From the NCBI GenBank assembly GCA_003567855.1, contig PWYM01000272.1:1-58092 (forward strand): a stretch of DNA of 58,092 nucleotides, read 5' to 3'. Below, piece by piece: positions 9,130 through 28,023 of the stretch. The notes beneath the pieces were generated by a model. It was not told the DNA's origin. It made no database searches and was given only the letters and a program-made list of their open reading frames with translations. Source of the stretch: Gammaproteobacteria bacterium. Its GTDB lineage: Bacteria > Pseudomonadota > Gammaproteobacteria > Steroidobacterales > PWYM01. A program made the position numbers and the translations under genes. How positions within the stretch are numbered: the first letter of the stretch is position 1; each line of letters opens with the position of its first letter.

Positions 9130-12100
9130 ATGAAAAGAATGCTGGTGAACGCAACTCAGCAGGAAGAGTTGCGCGTGGCCCTCGTAGACGGCCAGAAGCT
9201 CTACGACCTCGACATCGAAGTTCCTTCCCGGGAGCAGAAAAAGGCCAACATCTACAAGGGCCGCATCACCCGGGTTGAACCCAGCCTCGAAGCGGCGTTC
9301 GTCGATTACGGCGCAGACCGCCACGGCTTCCTGCCGCTGAAGGAAATCTCCGCCGAATATTTCGTGCGTCCGCCCGGCGAGGGCGACAAGGTCGCAATCC
9401 GCGACGTGCTGCGCGAAGGCCAGGAAATCGTCGTCCAGGTCGAGAAGGAAGAGCGCGGCAACAAGGGCGCCGCGCTCACGACCTTCGTCAGCCTCGCCGG
9501 ACGCTTCCTCGTGCTGATGCCCAACAATCCCGGTGCCGGCGGCGTGTCGCGCCGCATCACCGGCGAAGACCGTGACGTGGTCCGCGAAGCGCTCCAGCAG
9601 CTCACGGTGCCCGACGGCATGGGCTGCATCGTGCGCACCGCCGGCGTCGGCCGCGGCGCCGAGGAACTGCAGTGGGACCTCGACTACCTGCTGAGCGTCT
9701 GGGAGGCGATCAAGCAGGTCGTCGTGTCGCGTCCGTCGCCGTTTCTGATTTACCAGGAAAGCAAGGCGATCATCCGCGCGCTGCGCGACTACCTCAACAC
9801 CGACATCGGCGAAATTCTCATCGACGACGCCGCGGTGTACGCCGAGGCGACCGAGTTCATGCAGCAGGTGATGCCGCACAACCTGCGCAAGCTCAAGCAC
9901 TACGACGACGAAACGGTCCCGCTGTTCACGCGTTTCCAGATCGAGAGCCAGATCGAGACGGCGTTCTCGCACTCGGTGACGCTGCCGTCGGGCGGTTCCA
10001 TCGTCATCGACCAGACCGAGGCGCTGGTGTCCATCGACATCAACTCGGCGCGGGCGACCAAGGGTGGCGACATCGAGGCCACCGCGCTGAACACCAACCT
10101 CGAGGCCGCCGACGAGATCGCCCGGCAGCTTCGCATCCGCGACATCGGCGGGCTCATCGTCATCGACTTCATCGACATGGGGCCGTCGAAGCACCAGCGT
10201 GATGTGGAAAACCGGCTGCGCGATGCGGTGCGCATGGACCGTGCACGCATACAGATCGGGCGCATATCGCGCTTCGGGCTGCTCGAGATGTCGCGCCAGC
10301 GGCTGCGTCCGTCGCTCGACGAGTCCATGCACATCACCTGCCCGCGCTGCAGCGGCAACGGCACGATACGCAGCGTCGAATCGCTCGCGCTCGCGGTGCT
10401 GCGCCTCGTCGGAGAGGAGGCACGCAAGGAGCGCACCGCGAAGGTCATCACGCAGTTGCCGGTCGACGTGGCCACCTACCTGCTCAACGAGAAGCGCGAC
10501 TGGGTCAACAGCATCGACGAGCGCCATGGCGTGCGCATCGTGATCGTCGCGAACCCGGCGCTCGAGACCCCGAACTACGCGATCCGCCGCGTGCGCGACG
10601 ACGAGGTCGAGCTGCCGGAGAACGCCGACACGAGCTACCGGATGATCGCCTCCGACACCGACCTCAGCGAGCAGTACCTGCAGAGCACGCAGCCGCGCCA
10701 GCTCGAACAGCCGGCGGTGAACGTGATGGTGCATGCCAGCCCGGTGCCCTCGCCGGCGCCGCAGGCACAGGCGCCCGAAGCGCCCGAACGGGCCGCACCG
10801 CAGCGCGAAGCCACACCCCCTCGCGGGCTGTTCGGCTGGCTCGCCGGTCTGTTCGGTGGGGGTGGTGACACCCGCGATGACGACGATCGCAAAGACGGCA
10901 AGCGCGACAGCAGCAGGCGTCGCCGCGGCACTGGCGGCGCGAAGGGCGCGGTGGATGACACCGGCTCCGACAACCGGCGCGGGACGCGCGACGGCACCCG
11001 CCGCCGCCGTGGTGGCGACGAACGCCGTGGCGGTGGTGAACGCGGGGCGCGCAACGAAGGCGGCCGCCGCGGCGGGCGCAACAAGCGCGATGACGCCAAC
11101 GGCGAGCGCAAGCGCGCCGGCGGCGGCGGCAGTGAGCAGCAGGGTCGCAGCCGCGATGACCGCGGCTCACGTCGTGGTGACGGCGATGAGAAGAAGCCGC
11201 GCCGTCAACAGGGGGACGCGAAGAAGGCGGAAGACGCGAAGCCCGCCGACGCTGCCGCCAGCCAGCAGGCTGGCCCCGGCAACGACGCGAACGCGCGCGA
11301 CGACTCGTCCACCCCACGTCGTCGCACCGAGGCGGAGCCGCCCAAGGCACCCGCCGGCGGCACACCCGACAAGGGGAACGCGGACCAGGCGGCCGCCGGT
11401 GGCGACGCTGCTGCGGGTGAGCAGCAGCAGTCCGGCGAGCAGTCGACCGACGGCGAACGCGCCGGCGGCAGCAGGCGTCGTGGCGGCCGCAGGCGTCGCC
11501 GCGGATCGCGCGGCGGACGGGCGCGCCAGCAGGAAGGCGCTGCGGGGCAGGAAGGCTCCGGGCAGCAGGACGGCTCTGCGCAGCAGGACGGGTCCAGGAC
11601 GCCGGAAGGCTCTGCACGGCAGGACGGTGCCGGGCAGCGCGACAGTGTTGCCCAGCAGGACAGCTCCGGGCAGAAGGACGGCGGTGGACAGCGAGACCGG
11701 CAAGCGCCGCAGGACAGCCGCCGCCGGGACGAGGGCCGGGACGAGGGTCGGACCCAGTCGGCCGCAGAACGTGGTTCAGCACCGAAGACCGATGCCGCCA
11801 ACGCCGAAAAGGTGACTTCTGGCGCGCCCAAGGGGGAGACGTCCGGGGATCAGCCGCGCAAGGCTGAGGTCTCCGCGGACCAGGCTCCGAAGAAGGAAGC
11901 TCCGAAAGCGGCGACTGCTACGGCAGAAGCTCCTAAGGCAGAAGCTCCTAAGGCAGAAGCTCCTAAGGCAGAAGCTCCTAAGGCAGAAGCTCCTAAGGCA
12001 GAAGCTCCTAAGGCAGAGGCTCCTAAGGCAGAGGCTCCTAAGGCAGAGGCTCCTAAGGCAGAGGCTTCCAACGCGGACACGCCGAGGCCAAAGCCCCTGG

Positions 12101-12508: not shown

Positions 12509-13000
12509 TCAGCGGCGCTGCGAACGCAGCGCCGCGATGAGTCCGTCACATGCGTGCTCGACGAGATCGAGCACGTACTCGAAACCGTTGGCGCCCCCGT
12601 AGTACGGGTCAGGCACTTCGGTTTCACCACTGCGCGCGGCGTACTTCAAAAACAGCTCGAGCGTGGCACCGGCATCACCCGGACGCAGCGCTTCGAGAAG
12701 GTCATGATTGTGTCGGTCCATCGCGAGGATCAGATCGAAGCGCGCGAAATCCTCTGCCATCACCTGCCGGGCGCGCAACTGCGACAGATCCACGCCGCGC
12801 CGGCGCGCTGCCTCTACCGTGCGCCGATCGGGCGGATTGCCGACGTGGTAGTCATGGGTGCCCGCCGAATCCAGCTCGAGTTCCAGATCCGGGGCCTGTT
12901 CGGCGAGACGGCTTCGCATGATGCCCTCAGCGGTGGGCGACCTGCATATATTGCCCATGCAGACGAAGAGAATGCGGCGGGTGACCTTGCGCTCAGCCAT
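12509..13000 (-). CDS. Low-molecular-weight protein tyrosine phosphatase
   Basis: The 163-residue protein has the P-loop VCMGNICRSP (CX5R) near the N-terminus and the general-acid loop EVPDPYYGG near the C-terminus, the two hallmarks of LMW-PTPs. These cytosolic enzymes dephosphorylate phosphotyrosine; bacterial members often act with polysaccharide kinases, but none is encoded nearby. The ATG at 13000 (MAERKVTRR) overlaps the DUF2802 stop in ATGGCTGA, which decides the start over an upstream in-frame codon at 13039. It ends 10 bases from the convergent rne stop. Confidence 0.93.
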   Translation of the reverse strand: MAERKVTRRILFVCMGNICRSPTAEGIMRSRLAEQAPDLELELDSAGTHDYHVGNPPDRRTVEAARRRGVDLSQLRARQVMAEDFARFDLILAMDRHNHDLLEALRPGDAGATLELFLKYAARSGETEVPDPYYGGANGFEYVLDLVEHACDGLIAALRSQRR

Positions 13001-13427
13001 GGCCGCCACCCTGTCCGGCCCTGTCCACGGGCGCTGCATGGTCGCCGTGCAGCCGGCTGATCAGCTCGGCTTCGCCGCGGCTCAGGCCGCAGGTCGCGAC
13101 CAGGCTGTCGATATCCTCTCCGCGCTGCGCCAGTCGGATGGCCTGCAGGTACGGCCCGGCATTGTCATCGCGCAGCATCAGCTGCTCCTGCTGTTCGGAG
13201 AGCAGCGCCAGGCGCTCGGCCAATTCGGACTGACGACCGGCGGTGCGTGCACCGCCCTCACCGAAATGTGCGAGCTCTGACTGCAGGCGCATCAGCTCGG
13301 CCTCATGGCGCGCAAGACGCTCGTGGGCACGCGCGGCATTGGCGCCTGCGCGCACGGCCACGACCAGGCCCAGCAGCGCGACGAAACCGCCGCTGACGAT
13401 CGCGAGCAGCAGGGGGTCGATATTCAC
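12993..13427 (-). CDS. DUF2802 flagellar-cluster-associated protein
   Basis: The 144-residue protein has one N-terminal membrane helix (about residues 5-25), a long predicted coiled coil (AHERLARHEAELMRLQSELAHF...SELAERLALLSEQQEQLM), and a C-terminal segment (YLQAIRLAQRGEDIDSLVATCGLSRGEAELISRLHG) resembling a helix-turn-helix and characteristic of DUF2802. The family is regularly encoded at the end of cheA-motCD-cheW loci in Pseudomonas-type genomes; its role is unknown. The start is GTG at 13427, overlapping the upstream small ORF in GTGA. Its stop overlaps the phosphatase start, so the three genes are translationally coupled. Confidence 0.85.
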   Translation of the reverse strand: MNIDPLLLAIVSGGFVALLGLVVAVRAGANAARAHERLARHEAELMRLQSELAHFGEGGARTAGRQSELAERLALLSEQQEQLMLRDDNAGPYLQAIRLAQRGEDIDSLVATCGLSRGEAELISRLHGDHAAPVDRAGQGGGHG

Positions 13428-13624
13428 GCGTAGTCGTCCACGAGTCCGCCGCGCCGGCGGGGCGACGGTCGGTATTCATGCGCCGCCGCCACGTCCGGGG
13501 TCTCTGCCGAAGCGTCGTGCCCGTCGTCGCGTGATTGCCGGCCCTGCTGCTCGTCGCGCGGATCAGCCGGCCGCGATACCTGGCGAACTGGCTGTGGCGG
13601 CGATATGCGTCCCACCTTTTGCAT
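13424..13624 (-). CDS. Small unknown Pro/Arg/Asp-rich protein ending VDDYA
   Basis: This 66-residue ORF is hydrophilic and probably disordered (many Pro, Arg, Asp and Gln) and ends in RRGGLVDDYA. I do not recognise a family. It is likely real: GGAGG lies ten bases before the ATG at 13624, and its TGA overlaps the GTG of the DUF2802 gene in GTGA. It sits where parA/parC and cheW genes lie in related loci. A short conserved acidic-aromatic C-terminus could be a docking peptide, but that is a guess. Confidence 0.6.
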   Translation of the reverse strand: MQKVGRISPPQPVRQVSRPADPRDEQQGRQSRDDGHDASAETPDVAAAHEYRPSPRRRGGLVDDYA

Positions 13625-13643
13625 TGCACATTTTCCTCCGCCA

Positions 13644-13671
13644 GATGCAGTGCACCGCGGTGCACTGCATC
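13644..13671. repeat. Perfect 28-bp palindrome
   Basis: GATGCAGTGCACCG joined to CGGTGCACTGCATC is a perfect 14+14 base inverted repeat without spacer. It lies in the 120-base gap between motB and the small ORF, about 20 bases before the latter's start. There is no T-run, so it is not an obvious intrinsic terminator. It could be an operator, an mRNA hairpin or a deletion scar. Confidence 0.9.
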
Positions 13672-13744
13672 GAGCAACGCCGCGATCTCGACGAGCAGCG
13701 CAAGCTGGCCGTCACGGCTGACAACGTCGCCAATATACCCGGCA

Positions 13745-14710
13745 TTACCGCTCACCGTCTCGTTCGGGCTTACCGCTGCTGGCAACGGCGCGCTCACGCG
13801 GATCCACAGGGTCGACCGCAATCGGCTCGCCGGTGTTGTCGCCGCCCATTTTACCGGCATGTACCGGCTCGGCGAGCGCGCGCGGAGGCGATCCCGCCAT
13901 CACGACGATCACCACGCGACGGTTCTCGGCGCGCCCCTCGGGAGTGTCATTATCCGCCACCGGGCGATACTCACCGTAGCCGATTGCAGCCATCGTCTCC
14001 GGGGGAACGCCATTGTGCATGAAAACGTGTACGACGCTGGCGGCCCGCGCCGAGGACAGTTCCCAATTCGACGGGAAAACTTCGGTCCGGATTGGCAGTG
14101 TGTCGGTATGACCCTCCACGCGGATCTCGACGTCGCCGTCGACCAGCACTTCCCCGAGGCCCTTGATGATGTCGCGCGCGGGTGCCGTCATGCTCGCGCT
14201 ACCGCTCGCGAAAAGCACCTCGGTGTTAATCTCGACCTCGATCCACAGCGGGTTCTCCCGGACACGGATCAGTTCAGCGTCGACCAGCGGTGCCATCCTC
14301 TCGCGGATACGGGTCGCAAGTTTCGCAATCGCGTCGCGTGCCCGCTGCATGTCGGCCTCGGACGCACCGCTCTGTCGGATGATTTCCTCGGGCAGGCGGT
14401 CGTGTTCCCTGAGCCGCAGCAACTCGGGAACAAGATCGGCCTCCAGCGGAACGAGCGTACGCGGCATGTCCACGCTCGGCATGTCAAAGGCTCGTGCGAG
14501 TTCGCCGGTCTGCACCGGCTGCAGTGACTTCGGCGCAGTGCGGAACGCGGCCACCAGGGAGTCCGAAAGCACGCGGTATTTGCCTTCGTTGACCGAAGAG
14601 ATCGCATACATCACGACAAAGAACGCGAGCAACAACGTGATCAGGTCGCCATAGGGAATCGCCCATGCTTCATGGTTGACATGTTCCTCGCGCTTGCGCC
14701 GACGGGCCAT
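13745..14710 (-). CDS. motB: Flagellar stator protein MotB/MotD
   Basis: The 321-residue protein has a basic cytoplasmic N-terminus, a single membrane helix starting IPYGDLITLLLAFFVVMYA with the proton-binding Asp near residue 22, and a C-terminal OmpA-type peptidoglycan-binding domain (EGHTDTLPIRT...NWELSSARA...GYGEYRP). With MotA it forms the torque-generating proton channel anchored to the wall. The sequence and its position downstream of cheA favour the MotD (MotC/MotD) branch. No second stator pair is present here. A hydrophilic tail of about 50 residues follows the OmpA domain. Confidence 0.95.
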   Translation of the reverse strand: MARRRKREEHVNHEAWAIPYGDLITLLLAFFVVMYAISSVNEGKYRVLSDSLVAAFRTAPKSLQPVQTGELARAFDMPSVDMPRTLVPLEADLVPELLRLREHDRLPEEIIRQSGASEADMQRARDAIAKLATRIRERMAPLVDAELIRVRENPLWIEVEINTEVLFASGSASMTAPARDIIKGLGEVLVDGDVEIRVEGHTDTLPIRTEVFPSNWELSSARAASVVHVFMHNGVPPETMAAIGYGEYRPVADNDTPEGRAENRRVVIVVMAGSPPRALAEPVHAGKMGGDNTGEPIAVDPVDPRERAVASSGKPERDGER

Positions 14711-14728: not shown

Positions 14729-15469
14729 TCAGCGACCGAAGCCCTGCAGCTTCGATTCGATACTGCGCGGATTTTCGCCCTGGGCAATGGAAAGTAGTCC
14801 CTCGATGATCATCTCGCGGTGAGTCGAGTGCGCTTCGACGATCGCCTTGAGCTTGTTGCCGACCGGCAGAAAGAAAAGATTCGCCGACGCAATTCCGTAA
14901 ATAGTCGCGACGAAGGCCGTGGCAATGCCGGTGCCGAGAGCGCTGGGATCGGCAAGGTTCTGCATCACCGCGATCAGTCCCATCACCGCGCCGATGATGC
15001 CCAGCGTAGGCGCATAGATGCCCATGCTCTCGAATATCTTTGCGCCCTGCGTGTCCTGGGTCTCGCGACTGCCAAGATCAACTTCGAGCGTGTTGCGCAG
15101 CACGTCGGGTTCCACCCCGTCGACAAGCATCTGCAACCCCTTGCGCGTGAATTCGTCGGGCTCCTCCTCGGCGAGTTCCTCCAGGCCCAGGAGCCCGTCC
15201 TTGCGCGCGACCTGGCTCCAGCCGACGATCTTCTCGATCGTCGAGTTCATGTCGAGCCGCGGCGCACGAAACACCCACGGAAAGATCCTGAGCCCGTGCA
15301 GGAAAACCGGCAGGCGAGCCTGGATCAGCGCTGCGGCGAGAGTGCCCATGAACACGATCACGAACGCCGCGCCATTCCATAGCGCAGCGAGGCCACTGCC
15401 CTTCAGGATGCTGCCGCCCACCACCGCGAAAAGCGCCAGTCCGACGCCGACCAGACTCAGGATATCCAC
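14729..15469 (-). CDS. motA: Flagellar stator protein MotA/MotC
   Basis: The 246-residue inner-membrane protein has four predicted helices. Two are at the N-terminus (LSLVGVGLALFAVVGGSIL and AAFVIVFMGTLAAALI); two follow the cytoplasmic loop and include the APTLGIIGAVMGLI and GIATAFVATIYGIASANL blocks typical of MotA/MotC. It surrounds MotB in the stator. The start is GTG at 15469, preceded by GAGG at eight bases. It lies 50 bases after cheA, where related genomes carry cheB; no cheB remnant is recognisable in that gap. Confidence 0.95.
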   Translation of the reverse strand: MDILSLVGVGLALFAVVGGSILKGSGLAALWNGAAFVIVFMGTLAAALIQARLPVFLHGLRIFPWVFRAPRLDMNSTIEKIVGWSQVARKDGLLGLEELAEEEPDEFTRKGLQMLVDGVEPDVLRNTLEVDLGSRETQDTQGAKIFESMGIYAPTLGIIGAVMGLIAVMQNLADPSALGTGIATAFVATIYGIASANLFFLPVGNKLKAIVEAHSTHREMIIEGLLSIAQGENPRSIESKLQGFGR

Positions 15470-15519: not shown

Positions 15520-17271
15520 TCACGCCGCGTGCTCGAACGTTTGTGTGACACCACCGGTGTCGACGATCAGCGCAGTGTCACCGCCGCTGGTGACCGTTGC
15601 GCCGACAAAGGTCTCGACTGAGCGCAGTGCGCCGGTCAGCGGCTTGACGACGACTTCTTCTTCCCCAATCAGCGCGTCGACGAGCATCGCGATCCGACGT
15701 CCGCCCAGAGTCACCACGACCACGTGAGTGCCCGGCGGCAATTCCTCGCTGCCTGGAGTTGGGCGTGGACGCTCGGCGAACAGGCACCCCAGTGGCACCA
15801 GCGGTAACGGCTCACCGCGCACGATCACGACCTGGCGGCCCTGCACCCATTGCGAGGCAAGCTCGTCCGTGGCGATGGTTTCCACGACCTCGCCCATCGG
15901 CAGCGCGAAGCGCTGACTGCCGACCCAAACCATCAGCGTGCGAAAAATGCCGCGCGTCAGCGGCACCATGATGCGTATCCACGTACCCTCGCCGGGCGTA
16001 GACTCGATTTCGACCAGCCCGCGAAGCTCACTGATACGCGCGCGTACGACATCCATCCCGACGCCGCGGCCGGAAATGTTTGACACTTCGCTGCGCGTGG
16101 AAAAGCCTGCACCCAGGATGAGCTGCAGCGCCTCGGCGTCGCTCAGCGCACTCGCCGCTTCGGCGCTGAGCGCACCTTTTTCAACCGCCCTGGCACGCAG
16201 CTGCCCGGGGTCCATACCGCGGCCGTCGTCACCAACCCTGATCACGATGTAATGCCCCTGCCGGTACGCCTCGAGCGTCACCTCGCCAGTGGGAGGCTTG
16301 CCGGCAGCCTCGCGTTCCTCGGGCGACTCGATGCCGTGATCAACAGCATTTCGTACGAGGTGAATGAGCGGGTCGCTGAGCCGCTCGACGAGGTTCTTGT
16401 CAACCTCGCTGTCTCCCCCGTGGATCACGAGGCTGATTTCCTTGCCCAAGGTACGGGCAACATCGCGAACCACCCGCGGAAAGCGTGAAAAAATCCGACT
16501 GATCGGTTGCATGCGTACGTGCATAACCGCGCTCTGCAGCCCGTCCGTCACTGCATCGAGATTGCTGACGGTCTTGACCAGATCCTCCGAACCGTCGTCT
16601 CTCTCGACCAGTGTCATCAGGCGATTTCGCAGTAACACCAGCTCACCGACGAGGTTCATCATGCCGTCCAGCCGCACCGCCTCGACGCGCACCGATGCTT
16701 CGGCACCCGGATGACCCGAGCGGATCGGACCGAACTCCGACACGGGTCTTGAACTCGACGACAGGCGACGGCCCGACCCGGAGGGGCCCGCCCGATGCAA
16801 CGAGTCCAGCAATGCCTCGAGAGCCTCGTCGTCGTCTGGCGTGGAGTTGATCTTCGTTCCATGCCCGGAGTCAGTGGCGGAGCCGCTGCCCGGAGGGTGT
16901 ACCAGCAGCTCGTCGAGCGCAGCAAGCAGTTCCATATCTGCTGGCGGGAGGGAGGCACTCTCTTGCAGGGTCGTGAACATCGATGCAAGCGCATCCGCCA
17001 CCCGAAGCATGACGTCGATGAGTTCAGGAGTTGCCTGCGCTTCGCCCTGCCGAAGCAGGTTGAATACGTCTTCGGCGCGATGGCATAGCGCGACCACCGG
17101 CTCGAGCAGGAGAAAACCCGCTCCACCCTTGATCGAGTGGATGCTCCGGAAGACTGCATTCAGCAGCTGGGTGTCTTCCGGCGCATTTTCCAGCGCAATC
17201 AGTTGCGGAATCAGCGCGTCGACCAGCTCACCGGCGTCGTCCAGAAATTCTCGAAGCAGTTCGTGATCCAT
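15520..17271 (-). CDS. cheA: Chemotaxis histidine kinase CheA
   Basis: CheA autophosphorylates and passes phosphate to CheY. Domains in order: an HPt domain with His45 in SIHSIKGGAG; a linker of about 80 residues; a dimerisation helix pair (MMNLVGELVLLRNRLMTL); an ATPase with N box HLVRNAVDHGIESPEERE, DDGRGMD and GRGVGMDVV; and a C-terminal CheW-like domain. At 583 residues it lacks a folded P2 (CheY-docking) domain. The linker instead carries DEALEALLDSLH, which resembles short CheY-binding motifs. The start at 17271 (MDHELLREFLDDAGE) fits the HPt fold better than an in-frame start nine codons upstream. All catalytic boxes look intact. Confidence 0.95.
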   Translation of the reverse strand: MDHELLREFLDDAGELVDALIPQLIALENAPEDTQLLNAVFRSIHSIKGGAGFLLLEPVVALCHRAEDVFNLLRQGEAQATPELIDVMLRVADALASMFTTLQESASLPPADMELLAALDELLVHPPGSGSATDSGHGTKINSTPDDDEALEALLDSLHRAGPSGSGRRLSSSSRPVSEFGPIRSGHPGAEASVRVEAVRLDGMMNLVGELVLLRNRLMTLVERDDGSEDLVKTVSNLDAVTDGLQSAVMHVRMQPISRIFSRFPRVVRDVARTLGKEISLVIHGGDSEVDKNLVERLSDPLIHLVRNAVDHGIESPEEREAAGKPPTGEVTLEAYRQGHYIVIRVGDDGRGMDPGQLRARAVEKGALSAEAASALSDAEALQLILGAGFSTRSEVSNISGRGVGMDVVRARISELRGLVEIESTPGEGTWIRIMVPLTRGIFRTLMVWVGSQRFALPMGEVVETIATDELASQWVQGRQVVIVRGEPLPLVPLGCLFAERPRPTPGSEELPPGTHVVVVTLGGRRIAMLVDALIGEEEVVVKPLTGALRSVETFVGATVTSGGDTALIVDTGGVTQTFEHAA

Positions 17272-17291: not shown

Positions 17292-17378
17292 CTAGCAACC
17301 CAGCCGCTGCAGCAGGCCGTCGATCTCGGCACCTTCCACGACGCAGCGAATGCGGTGTCCATGTTCCTGCGCGTACAT
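17292..17378 (-). CDS. 28-residue ORF resembling only the CheY-binding tail of CheZ
   Basis: Between cheY and cheA, where CheZ is normally encoded, there is only a 28-codon ORF. It starts five bases after the cheY stop and reads MYAQEHGHRIRC... ending EGAEIDGLLQRLGC. The last 13 residues match the pattern of the CheZ C-terminal peptide that docks on CheY (E. coli ends QVDDLLDSLGF). The four-helix phosphatase domain of CheZ is absent. No strong Shine-Dalgarno is visible; re-initiation after cheY is possible. It could be a scar of a large deletion, an assembly deletion, or a functional micropeptide. Homology rests on a short motif plus position. Confidence 0.4.
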   Translation of the reverse strand: MYAQEHGHRIRCVVEGAEIDGLLQRLGC

Positions 17379-17382
17379 GCCG

Positions 17383-17775
17383 TCAGCTCGCTTCTCGCAA
17401 TCGTGCAAATACCCGGTCAATTTTTTTCTGCAGCGTCTCGGCGGTGAACGGCTTGACGATATAACCGTCAATGCCGGCCTGCCCGGCCTCTATGATCTGG
17501 TTACGCTTTGCCTCGGCGGTGACCATCAGTACCGGCAATGACTCCAGTTCGGGATCGCCACGCACAGCCTCCAGCAGGTCGATGCCGGGCATGTTCGGCA
17601 TATTCCAGTCGGTAACGAGAAAGTCGATACCGCCCCCTTTCAGGATCGGAAGAGCCGTCGCACCATCGTCGGCCTCCACAATGTTGCTGTAACCCAGCTC
17701 ACGCAGCAGGTTCTTGATGATCCGGCGCATCGTGGAGAAATCATCCACCACGAGGATCCGCATGCCCTTGTCCAT
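17383..17775 (-). CDS. cheY: Chemotaxis response regulator CheY
   Basis: The single-domain receiver is about 130 residues. All functional residues are present: the Asp pair in LVVDDFSTMRR, the phospho-acceptor in VTDWNMPNM, Thr in LMVTAEAKR, and Lys in YIVKPFTAETL. It binds FliM when phosphorylated to change motor rotation. GGAGG five bases upstream supports the ATG at 17775 (MDKGMRILV). It lies 52 bases after fliA and directly before the CheZ-tail-like ORF, an order matching fliA-cheY-cheZ-cheA of polar-flagellated gammaproteobacteria except for the missing cheZ body. Confidence 0.97.
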   Translation of the reverse strand: MDKGMRILVVDDFSTMRRIIKNLLRELGYSNIVEADDGATALPILKGGGIDFLVTDWNMPNMPGIDLLEAVRGDPELESLPVLMVTAEAKRNQIIEAGQAGIDGYIVKPFTAETLQKKIDRVFARLREAS

Positions 17776-17827
17776 CACCGCCTCCGGTATGCCGGTCCAC
17801 GCTGCTTGCGCGTGCGGCGTACTTCGG

Positions 17828-18544
17828 TCATCCGCGGGTCCATGCGGACATTCTCGCCCTCAGTCGTCCAAGGCTCTGCCCGTGCAGCTGGCAGACCCGC
17901 GATTCCGTGACGCCCAGCACCTCGCCGATCTCCCTGAGATTCAGCTCGTCGTCGTAATACAACGACAGGACCAGTCGTTCCCGTTCCGGCAGGCCGGCAA
18001 TCGCCTCGGCCAAAGCTTGTCGAAACCCGTCCCGTGCGCACTGCTCATCCGGTGTGTCGTCCTCGGATCCCGGCAACAAGTCGTCGGCGTTCGCGTCGTC
18101 GCCGCCGAGTTCCTGCAGACTGAACACTCGGCTGGCGGTGACGTCTCGCAGCATCCGGTGATAGGTATCCAGATCCACCTCCAGCGCGTCGGCAACCTCG
18201 TGTGCGTCGGCAGCTCGCCCCTCGCGCGCCTCGACGGAGCCCACCGCCTTGGCAATCCGGCGTGTATTGCGGTGGACCGATCGCGGCGTCCAGTCGTAGC
18301 GCCGGATCTCGTCGAGCATCGCACCGCGGATGCGTATCCCGGCAAAAGTCTCGAAGCTGGCCCCCTGCCCTGTCTCGTAATTCGTTGCCGCCTCCAGCAG
18401 GCCCACGACCCCCGCCTGGATCAGGTCATCGACCTGCACGCTTTCAGGCAGGCGTGCGGCCATGTGGTAGGCAATTCGCCTGACCAGATCCAGGTGGTTA
18501 CTGACCAGCTGGTCCCTGTGCTTGCGGGATTCGAGCGCGTACAT
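17828..18544 (-). CDS. fliA: Flagellar sigma factor FliA (sigma28)
   Basis: The 238-residue sigma factor directs late flagellar transcription. Region 2 is seen as LVRRIAYHMAARLPESVQVDDLIQAG with the FliA-type RIRGAMLDEIRRYDWTPRSVHR block. Region 4 is seen in LPERERLVLSLYYDDELNLREIGEVLGVTESRVCQLH. It starts three bases after the flhG stop, with GGAGA seven bases before the ATG. Its predicted targets in this window are the fliC, flgM and CheV-like promoters. The anti-sigma factor FlgM is encoded at 56699. Confidence 0.97.
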   Translation of the reverse strand: MYALESRKHRDQLVSNHLDLVRRIAYHMAARLPESVQVDDLIQAGVVGLLEAATNYETGQGASFETFAGIRIRGAMLDEIRRYDWTPRSVHRNTRRIAKAVGSVEAREGRAADAHEVADALEVDLDTYHRMLRDVTASRVFSLQELGGDDANADDLLPGSEDDTPDEQCARDGFRQALAEAIAGLPERERLVLSLYYDDELNLREIGEVLGVTESRVCQLHGQSLGRLRARMSAWTRG

Positions 18545-27018: not shown

Positions 27019-28023
27019 TCATTTACTCCTGCGTTGATCCTGATCGTCGATTCCGGGCACGCGTTCGATGAGCTTTACGGCGCTGGTCCCATCGGCGGCC
27101 CCGTAGGTGCCGCGCCAAAGCGGAATACCTTCGACTTCCAGCGTGACGGCTTCAGGCATGTCTATGGGGATCACGTCGCCCGTGCGAAGATTCATCACCC
27201 TGCGCAGGCTCAGTTCGACCTCGGTGAGCGGGCAGCTGATGTCGACCAGTGCATCCTCGATTTCACGACGCATCGAGCGCAGCCAGCGCTCGTCGGCGTC
27301 GGAGCGGTCGCTCTGCACACCCGCGTGGAGAATTTCCCGGATCGGTTCGATCATCGAGTACGGCAACGTGACATGAAGGTTGCCCGCGCCACCATCGAGA
27401 TCGACGCGAAAGTTTGATACGACGACCACCTCGGCCGGACTGACGATGTTTGCGAACTGGGGATTGACCTCGGAATTGATGTACTCGAATTCCACCGGGA
27501 GCACGGGGCGCCAGGCTTCCATCAGATCCTCGAAGGCACGCTTTAGGATCATGTGCACGACGCGCGTCTCGGTCGCTGTGAAATCCCGGCCCTCGATCTT
27601 GGCGTGGAAACGCCCGTCGCCGCCGAAGAAGTTATCGACGAGCATGAACACCAGGTGAGGATCGAAGACGAACAGTGCGGTACCGCGCAGCGGCTGCATG
27701 CGTACCAGGTTCAGGCTCGTCGGAACGTACAGGCTGTGCACGTACTCGGAGAACTTCACCATCTTCACCGCCTCGACAGAAATCTCGGCTGATCGGCGCA
27801 ACATGTTGAACAGGTTGATGCGCAGATGGCGAGCAAAACGCTCGTTTATCATCTCGAGCGTGGGCATGCGTCCACGCACGATTCGTTCCTGGCTGGCAAG
27901 GTCTATCGAGCGCGGTTGACCGTCCGACTGCGTGTCGGCGGGCTCGGTTTCCACCGACCCTTCGTTCACGCCGTGCAGCAGCGCGTCGATTTCTTCCTGC
28001 GAAAGTACGTCGTCTCTGGGCAT
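27019..28023 (-). CDS. fliM: Flagellar motor switch protein FliM
   Basis: The 334-residue C-ring protein has the N-terminal CheY-binding motif LSQEEIDALLHG (residues 7-18), a middle CheC-like domain, and a C-terminal SpoA domain (LRTGDVIPIDMPEAVTLEVEG). The intact CheY-docking motif shows that the switch can still respond to CheY-P. It lies ten bases after fliL in the fliLMNOPQR order. Confidence 0.97.
   Translation of the reverse strand: MPRDDVLSQEEIDALLHGVNEGSVETEPADTQSDGQPRSIDLASQERIVRGRMPTLEMINERFARHLRINLFNMLRRSAEISVEAVKMVKFSEYVHSLYVPTSLNLVRMQPLRGTALFVFDPHLVFMLVDNFFGGDGRFHAKIEGRDFTATETRVVHMILKRAFEDLMEAWRPVLPVEFEYINSEVNPQFANIVSPAEVVVVSNFRVDLDGGAGNLHVTLPYSMIEPIREILHAGVQSDRSDADERWLRSMRREIEDALVDISCPLTEVELSLRRVMNLRTGDVIPIDMPEAVTLEVEGIPLWRGTYGAADGTSAVKLIERVPGIDDQDQRRSK

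Follow-up and report, generated by a model that had tools for sequence, protein, structure and literature searches.

A 28-codon remnant of cheZ, probably vestigial, in the cheY-cheA interval of a gammaproteobacterial flagellar operon

The window, the whole 58,092-nucleotide stretch of contig PWYM01000272.1 that was analysed here, harbors a minus-strand flagellar operon that runs from fliH to flhB, flhA, flhF, flhG, fliA, cheY, cheA, motA, motB and a DUF2802 gene. All of the operon genes described below are found on this strand. The gene fliA (17828-18544) is the start of a fliA-cheY-cheZ-cheA block. The adjoining cheY (17383-17778) is intact, since alignment finds the acidic pocket, the phospho-acceptor Asp, the Thr and the Lys all present, and its product is 82% identical to that of its nearest relative, locus L077 (the same place as G135:C68). 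The cheA gene (15520-17271) is also intact, with Pfam matches to the Hpt, dimerisation, ATPase and CheW-like P5 domains. A motA-type stator gene (14729-15469) lies directly 3' of cheA, cheB being missing from this position, and is followed by a motB/motD-type stator gene (13745-14710). The last gene of the operon, identified by Pfam, encodes a DUF2802 protein (12993-13427). In the same-genus genomes G001 and G004, Pfam searches of the genes between motB and the DUF2802 gene find a parA-like gene and cheW, together with a 153-residue ORF that has no Pfam match; in the window all three are missing from the corresponding interval (13428-13744), and the DUF2802 gene comes directly after motB. Further upstream, fliM (27019-28023) is intact; its product, to which CheY-P also docks, has the motif LSQEEIDALL at its N-terminus. 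In trees, the flagellar genes between 12500 and 32500 do not fall within the genus's flagellar clade, which may reflect gene transfer or fast evolution. Elsewhere in the window, the C-terminal tail of RNase E is encoded by about ten near-perfect 15-bp repeats (11918-12066), which give KAEAP units.

The spacing between cheY and cheA is only around 110 bases, and within it lies a 28-codon ORF (17292-17378) that encodes MYAQEHGHRIRCVVEGAEIDGLLQRLGC. The initial annotation had placed just such an ORF in this slot, and the position is exact. The ORF begins 4 nt past the TGA of cheY (17383-17385) and stops 20 nt short of the cheA ATG at 17271; with a permissive set of start codons, its frame also opens at a TTG at 17471, inside cheY, to give 59 residues. 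The ATG itself is found at the conserved start position of cheZ, and in gene order the ORF occupies the cheZ place of the fliA-cheY-cheZ-cheA block. Its codon usage is gene-like, with a log-likelihood ratio of 10.1 against a median of 12.5 for in-frame genes, a value that no out-of-frame open stretch matches, and its GC3 of 75% is close to the 75.6% of the adjacent genes.

The relationship of this short ORF to CheZ was assessed with a position matrix derived from the full-length CheZ tails of the relatives' loci that were retrieved. On this matrix the last 12 residues score 5.7 bits. The best chance segment among the 1,458 stops of the window reaches 2.7 bits, and in the loci, where around 46,600 segments ending at a stop codon were scored, the best reaches 3.3 bits, which rules out chance resemblance; the only scores there above that of the window tail belong to real CheZ tails and to a second tail-only copy in genome G002. 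The ORF thus ends, as had been proposed from the sequence at the outset, in a CheY-docking tail that terminates at the stop codon in the manner of CheZ. The CheZ of L077 is full length and ends in DVVEGQQDVDDLLSELGV, and the last 17 residues of the ORF align with its C-terminus. Here the window reads CVVEG-AEIDGLLQRLGC, and, since the VVEG upstream of the motif is common to both, the homology reaches beyond the docking motif itself. In several full-length relatives cheZ starts 3-5 nt past the cheY stop. Both junctions of the ORF, its start relative to cheY and its stop relative to cheA, are as they are in full-length relatives. Because both positions are kept, the ORF appears to be the product of an internal, in-frame deletion of cheZ, and of the two origins offered by the initial annotation it is the removal of the catalytic part by deletion that is borne out. 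The phosphatase helices are missing, as also claimed: the PF04344 profile, which covers the helical phosphatase domain, gives no Pfam match to the 28-mer, and the catalytic glutamine region, Q-D-[LI]-[TS]-G-Q, is present in relatives and absent from the 28 residues. Because the catalytic part is missing, the predicted peptide would have no CheY-P phosphatase activity. A search of PDB sequences with the 28-mer returned unrelated weak matches only.

Full-length CheZ is the rule at this position. Of 80 named gammaproteobacterial loci, located by way of their CheY, 77 have an intact full-length CheZ in the slot, with tails that are variants of QDxVDDLLSSLGF. The remaining three, none of them tail-only, represent a contig end, an ORF that lacks the tail motif and a frame that is interrupted. 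As had been expected at the outset, the slot normally holds a full-length CheZ, with lengths mostly of 230-290 residues. In one locus, L132 (Piscirickettsiaceae MAG DT_62), cheZ seems to be an interrupted frame, with a 79-residue ORF and a separate ORF that has an intact tail. A full CheZ is present in all four genus-mates of the window genome (G000). Flagellar-type CheY is encoded by 68 of the 396 genomes of the order, and comparison of the two lists leaves only four of the 68 without a CheZ above the cut-off: G000, G296, G375 and G348. In G296 and G375 (loci G296:C6, or L176, and G375:C13, or L175) cheZ is gone without residue, and motA is found around 20 nt past cheY with no ORF between them; G240 and G368, from the same genus as these two, keep cheZ, the G368 form being short at 177 residues. 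The CheY of G348 is of a more distant type and adjoins a different CheA-like gene.

G002 provides the only other tail-only case seen, both in the order and among the matches listed in a class-wide scan, which extend only to scores above those of weak hits. Two further candidates, G316:C21 and G579:C119, were rejected because they appear to be contig-end fragments or to be split between contigs. G002 is a genus-mate, and in its second flagellar che locus (G002:C218; L015) the cheZ slot contains a 64-codon ORF (L060:5709-5903, minus strand) that starts 4 nt past the cheY stop and ends in RGQHDVDALLSDMGL; the CheZ profile matches it over CheZ positions 170-202 only. In a tree built from eight concatenated flagellar and chemotaxis proteins, the G002:C218 locus groups with the loci of the genus that have a full CheZ, and the window falls outside both these and L077. 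That both tail-only copies go back to a single reduction is rejected by the tree and by an AU test (p = 0.0025), subject to the long branch of the window. On the same phylogenetic grounds, and with the same caveat, cheZ has most likely been reduced to its tail twice, independently, in the window lineage and in G002.

The tails of both copies have diverged. Pairs of full-length CheZ proteins whose CheY identity is 0.78-0.86 have a mean tail identity of 0.85 and a minimum of 0.67. The window tail is only 0.42-0.50 identical to full-length tails, including those of L077 (CheY identity 0.82) and G014 (CheY identity 0.78), and the G002 tail is 0.58 identical where around 0.93 would be expected, so both appear to be accelerated. 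The window tail keeps D-x-L-L-x-x-L-G and has lost two residues that we take to be D207 and F214 in E. coli numbering. Its matches by codon position, on comparisons of 12 codons that are small and non-independent, are around 7, 8 and 7 of 12, an even spread that is unlike that of full-length pairs and is as expected for decaying DNA with no apparent amino-acid constraint. The G002 tail, under the same limits, gives around 8.5, 10 and 5, which resembles a constrained protein. With FlhA as the yardstick, the divergence of CheY and CheA in the window is no more rapid than where a full CheZ is present, which indicates that the pair is still under constraint.

The window belongs to a metagenome-assembled genome of 302 contigs that is 87.6% complete, and absences outside the operon are thus provisional. 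Within this genome a CheZ profile search gave no match at E <= 10, which rules out an intact CheZ elsewhere at that threshold, and a search for CheX (PF13690) gave none at E <= 1, which removes CheX as a substitute phosphatase. The complete cheZ or cheX for which the initial annotation had advised a search is thus found in neither case. Only one MCP is encoded, against 5-10 in the genus-mates, and stand-alone CheW is absent save for one CheW-like gene beside the lone MCP. These two genes probably represent a pilus-type chemosensory cluster, a label that is unconfirmed by Pfam or NCBIfam. Canonical CheR was not found in the genome, where the sole match to the CheR domain is a 910-residue ORF. 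Some of these gaps may be due to the incompleteness of the assembly, which does not account for the losses inside the operon. As assembled, the genome is that of a flagellated organism with one MCP and no canonical CheR, yet with CheY and CheA seemingly constrained.

We consider that the 28-codon ORF is probably the vestigial tail of a CheZ, retained beside a flagellar CheA and CheY whose sensory input has been lost. An in-frame internal deletion would have removed the four-helix catalytic body and joined the start codon to the last 17 or so codons. In the same lineage cheW and the parA-like gene have also gone from the operon and, within the limits of the incomplete assembly, nearly all chemoreceptors and the canonical CheR are missing from the genome. 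A CheA that is not activated by receptors and CheW would load CheY only slowly; self-hydrolysis of CheY-P could then suffice to clear it, and a phosphatase would be dispensable. In E. coli, strains without receptors or CheW have no CheY phosphorylation, whereas loss of CheZ alone leads to an excess of CheY-P (PMC12270135); on this basis a receptor-less lineage could drop CheZ harmlessly. Receptor input would accordingly have been lost first and CheZ activity afterwards without penalty. The remaining stub, if translated, would bind CheY at most weakly and would not mediate its dephosphorylation. One possible reason for its persistence is that ribosomes translating across it maintain the coupling of cheA to cheY.

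The missing cheW and parA-like gene and the near absence of chemoreceptors make decay the simpler account, and the complete loss of cheZ in G296 and G375 is in keeping with it. Some observations point the other way: the ORF retains a start codon, a stop codon, an open frame and the codon usage of a gene, the rates of CheA and CheY are not those of an abandoned pair, and the apparently independent reduction to the same tail in G002 also argues, in part, against simple decay. A rival reading is that of a working micropeptide. Once translated, such a peptide would bind CheY-P at its alpha4-beta5-alpha5 face and act as a decoy or buffer against FliM, lowering switching without any phosphatase activity. 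The docking role of the CheZ C-terminus is established (PMC1447658; work cited in PMC12270135), the codon usage of the ORF is gene-like, tail-only CheZ has seemingly arisen at least twice, the G002 copy retains the motif with conserved first and second codon positions, and the window tail shares EIDxLL with the N-terminus of the window's own FliM. However, the window tail has diverged at around the rate of unconstrained DNA with the loss of D207 and F214, no close relative shares it and the genomes compared contain no orthologous ORF, and, with receptor input seemingly lost, CheY-P in need of buffering may be scarce. The surviving competitor of FliM that the initial annotation had entertained thus goes unsupported, as its tail is far less conserved than that of full-length CheZ and has no codon-position bias. 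A working CheY-binding peptide is a live minority reading, on balance unlikely for the window and better supported, on codon patterns, for the 64-codon copy of G002. The broader proposal that CheZ is repeatedly reducible to a stand-alone docking peptide, which would tune a receptor-less CheA-CheY pair through competition with FliM and so turn a phosphatase into a sequestration device, strikes us as decidedly speculative and rather improbable.

Selection might instead act on the open frame and not on the peptide, with the ORF serving to carry ribosomes and transcription from cheY into cheA. The junctions of 4 nt and 20 nt suit this role, both reductions are in frame with a stop near cheA, and translational coupling is a known theme for chemotaxis genes (PMC2716512). 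Yet G296 and G375 have lost cheZ with no substitute ORF, though it is motA that succeeds cheY there, and the codon-position pattern of G002 is left unexplained, making coupling as the sole reason for the ORF a doubtful proposition with a small chance of being right. It is very improbable that the contig simply skips a full cheZ that is present in the sampled genome. A metagenome-assembled genome in 302 contigs is open to assembly or binning error, but the junction is in frame, the tail is unlike known full-length tails and so is not the product of a simple skip, cheW and the parA-like gene are missing from the same contig, and G002 has a tail-only locus as well. The FabH encoded on the contig is closest to, and groups with, that of the genus, which rejects a foreign contig in the bin, although the flagellar genes of the contig lie outside the corresponding clade of the genus.

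If the stub is vestigial, the locus provides a stepwise record of the dismantling of a chemotaxis operon while the flagellum, CheA and CheY remain constrained, and it raises the question of what role is left to a CheA-CheY pair that is apparently without receptors. A peptide that works would, on the other hand, represent a natural CheY-P decoy made out of the tail of a phosphatase.

Tail-only CheZ is not reported in the literature that was found, a search of partial coverage, which suggests a form that is unreported but is otherwise a variant of known CheZ. With CheZ (PF04344) the 28-mer shares the cheY-cheA slot, the start and stop positions and the C-terminal docking motif; it differs in having no helical body, catalytic glutamine region or profile match, and in its 28 residues against 200-290. 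CheY-P binds to CheZ mainly at the C-terminus, which is tethered to the helix bundle that bears the active site (PMC1447658; work cited in PMC12270135). The G002:C218 ORF resembles that of the window in lying in the cheZ slot, in starting 4 nt past the cheY stop, in consisting of linker and tail only and in having no parA-like gene nearby. In contrast to the window ORF, it is longer (64 residues), its tail QHDVDALLSDMGL is better conserved, cheW is still there, a full-CheZ locus is found beside it in the same MAG, and its origin appears from the tree to be independent. The N-terminal motif of FliM binds the same face of CheY-P as the CheZ tail. The short EIDxLL motif is common to FliM and the window tail, although the FliM motif is the N-terminal part of a switch protein and not a separate peptide, and the two are, as far as tested, not related by descent.
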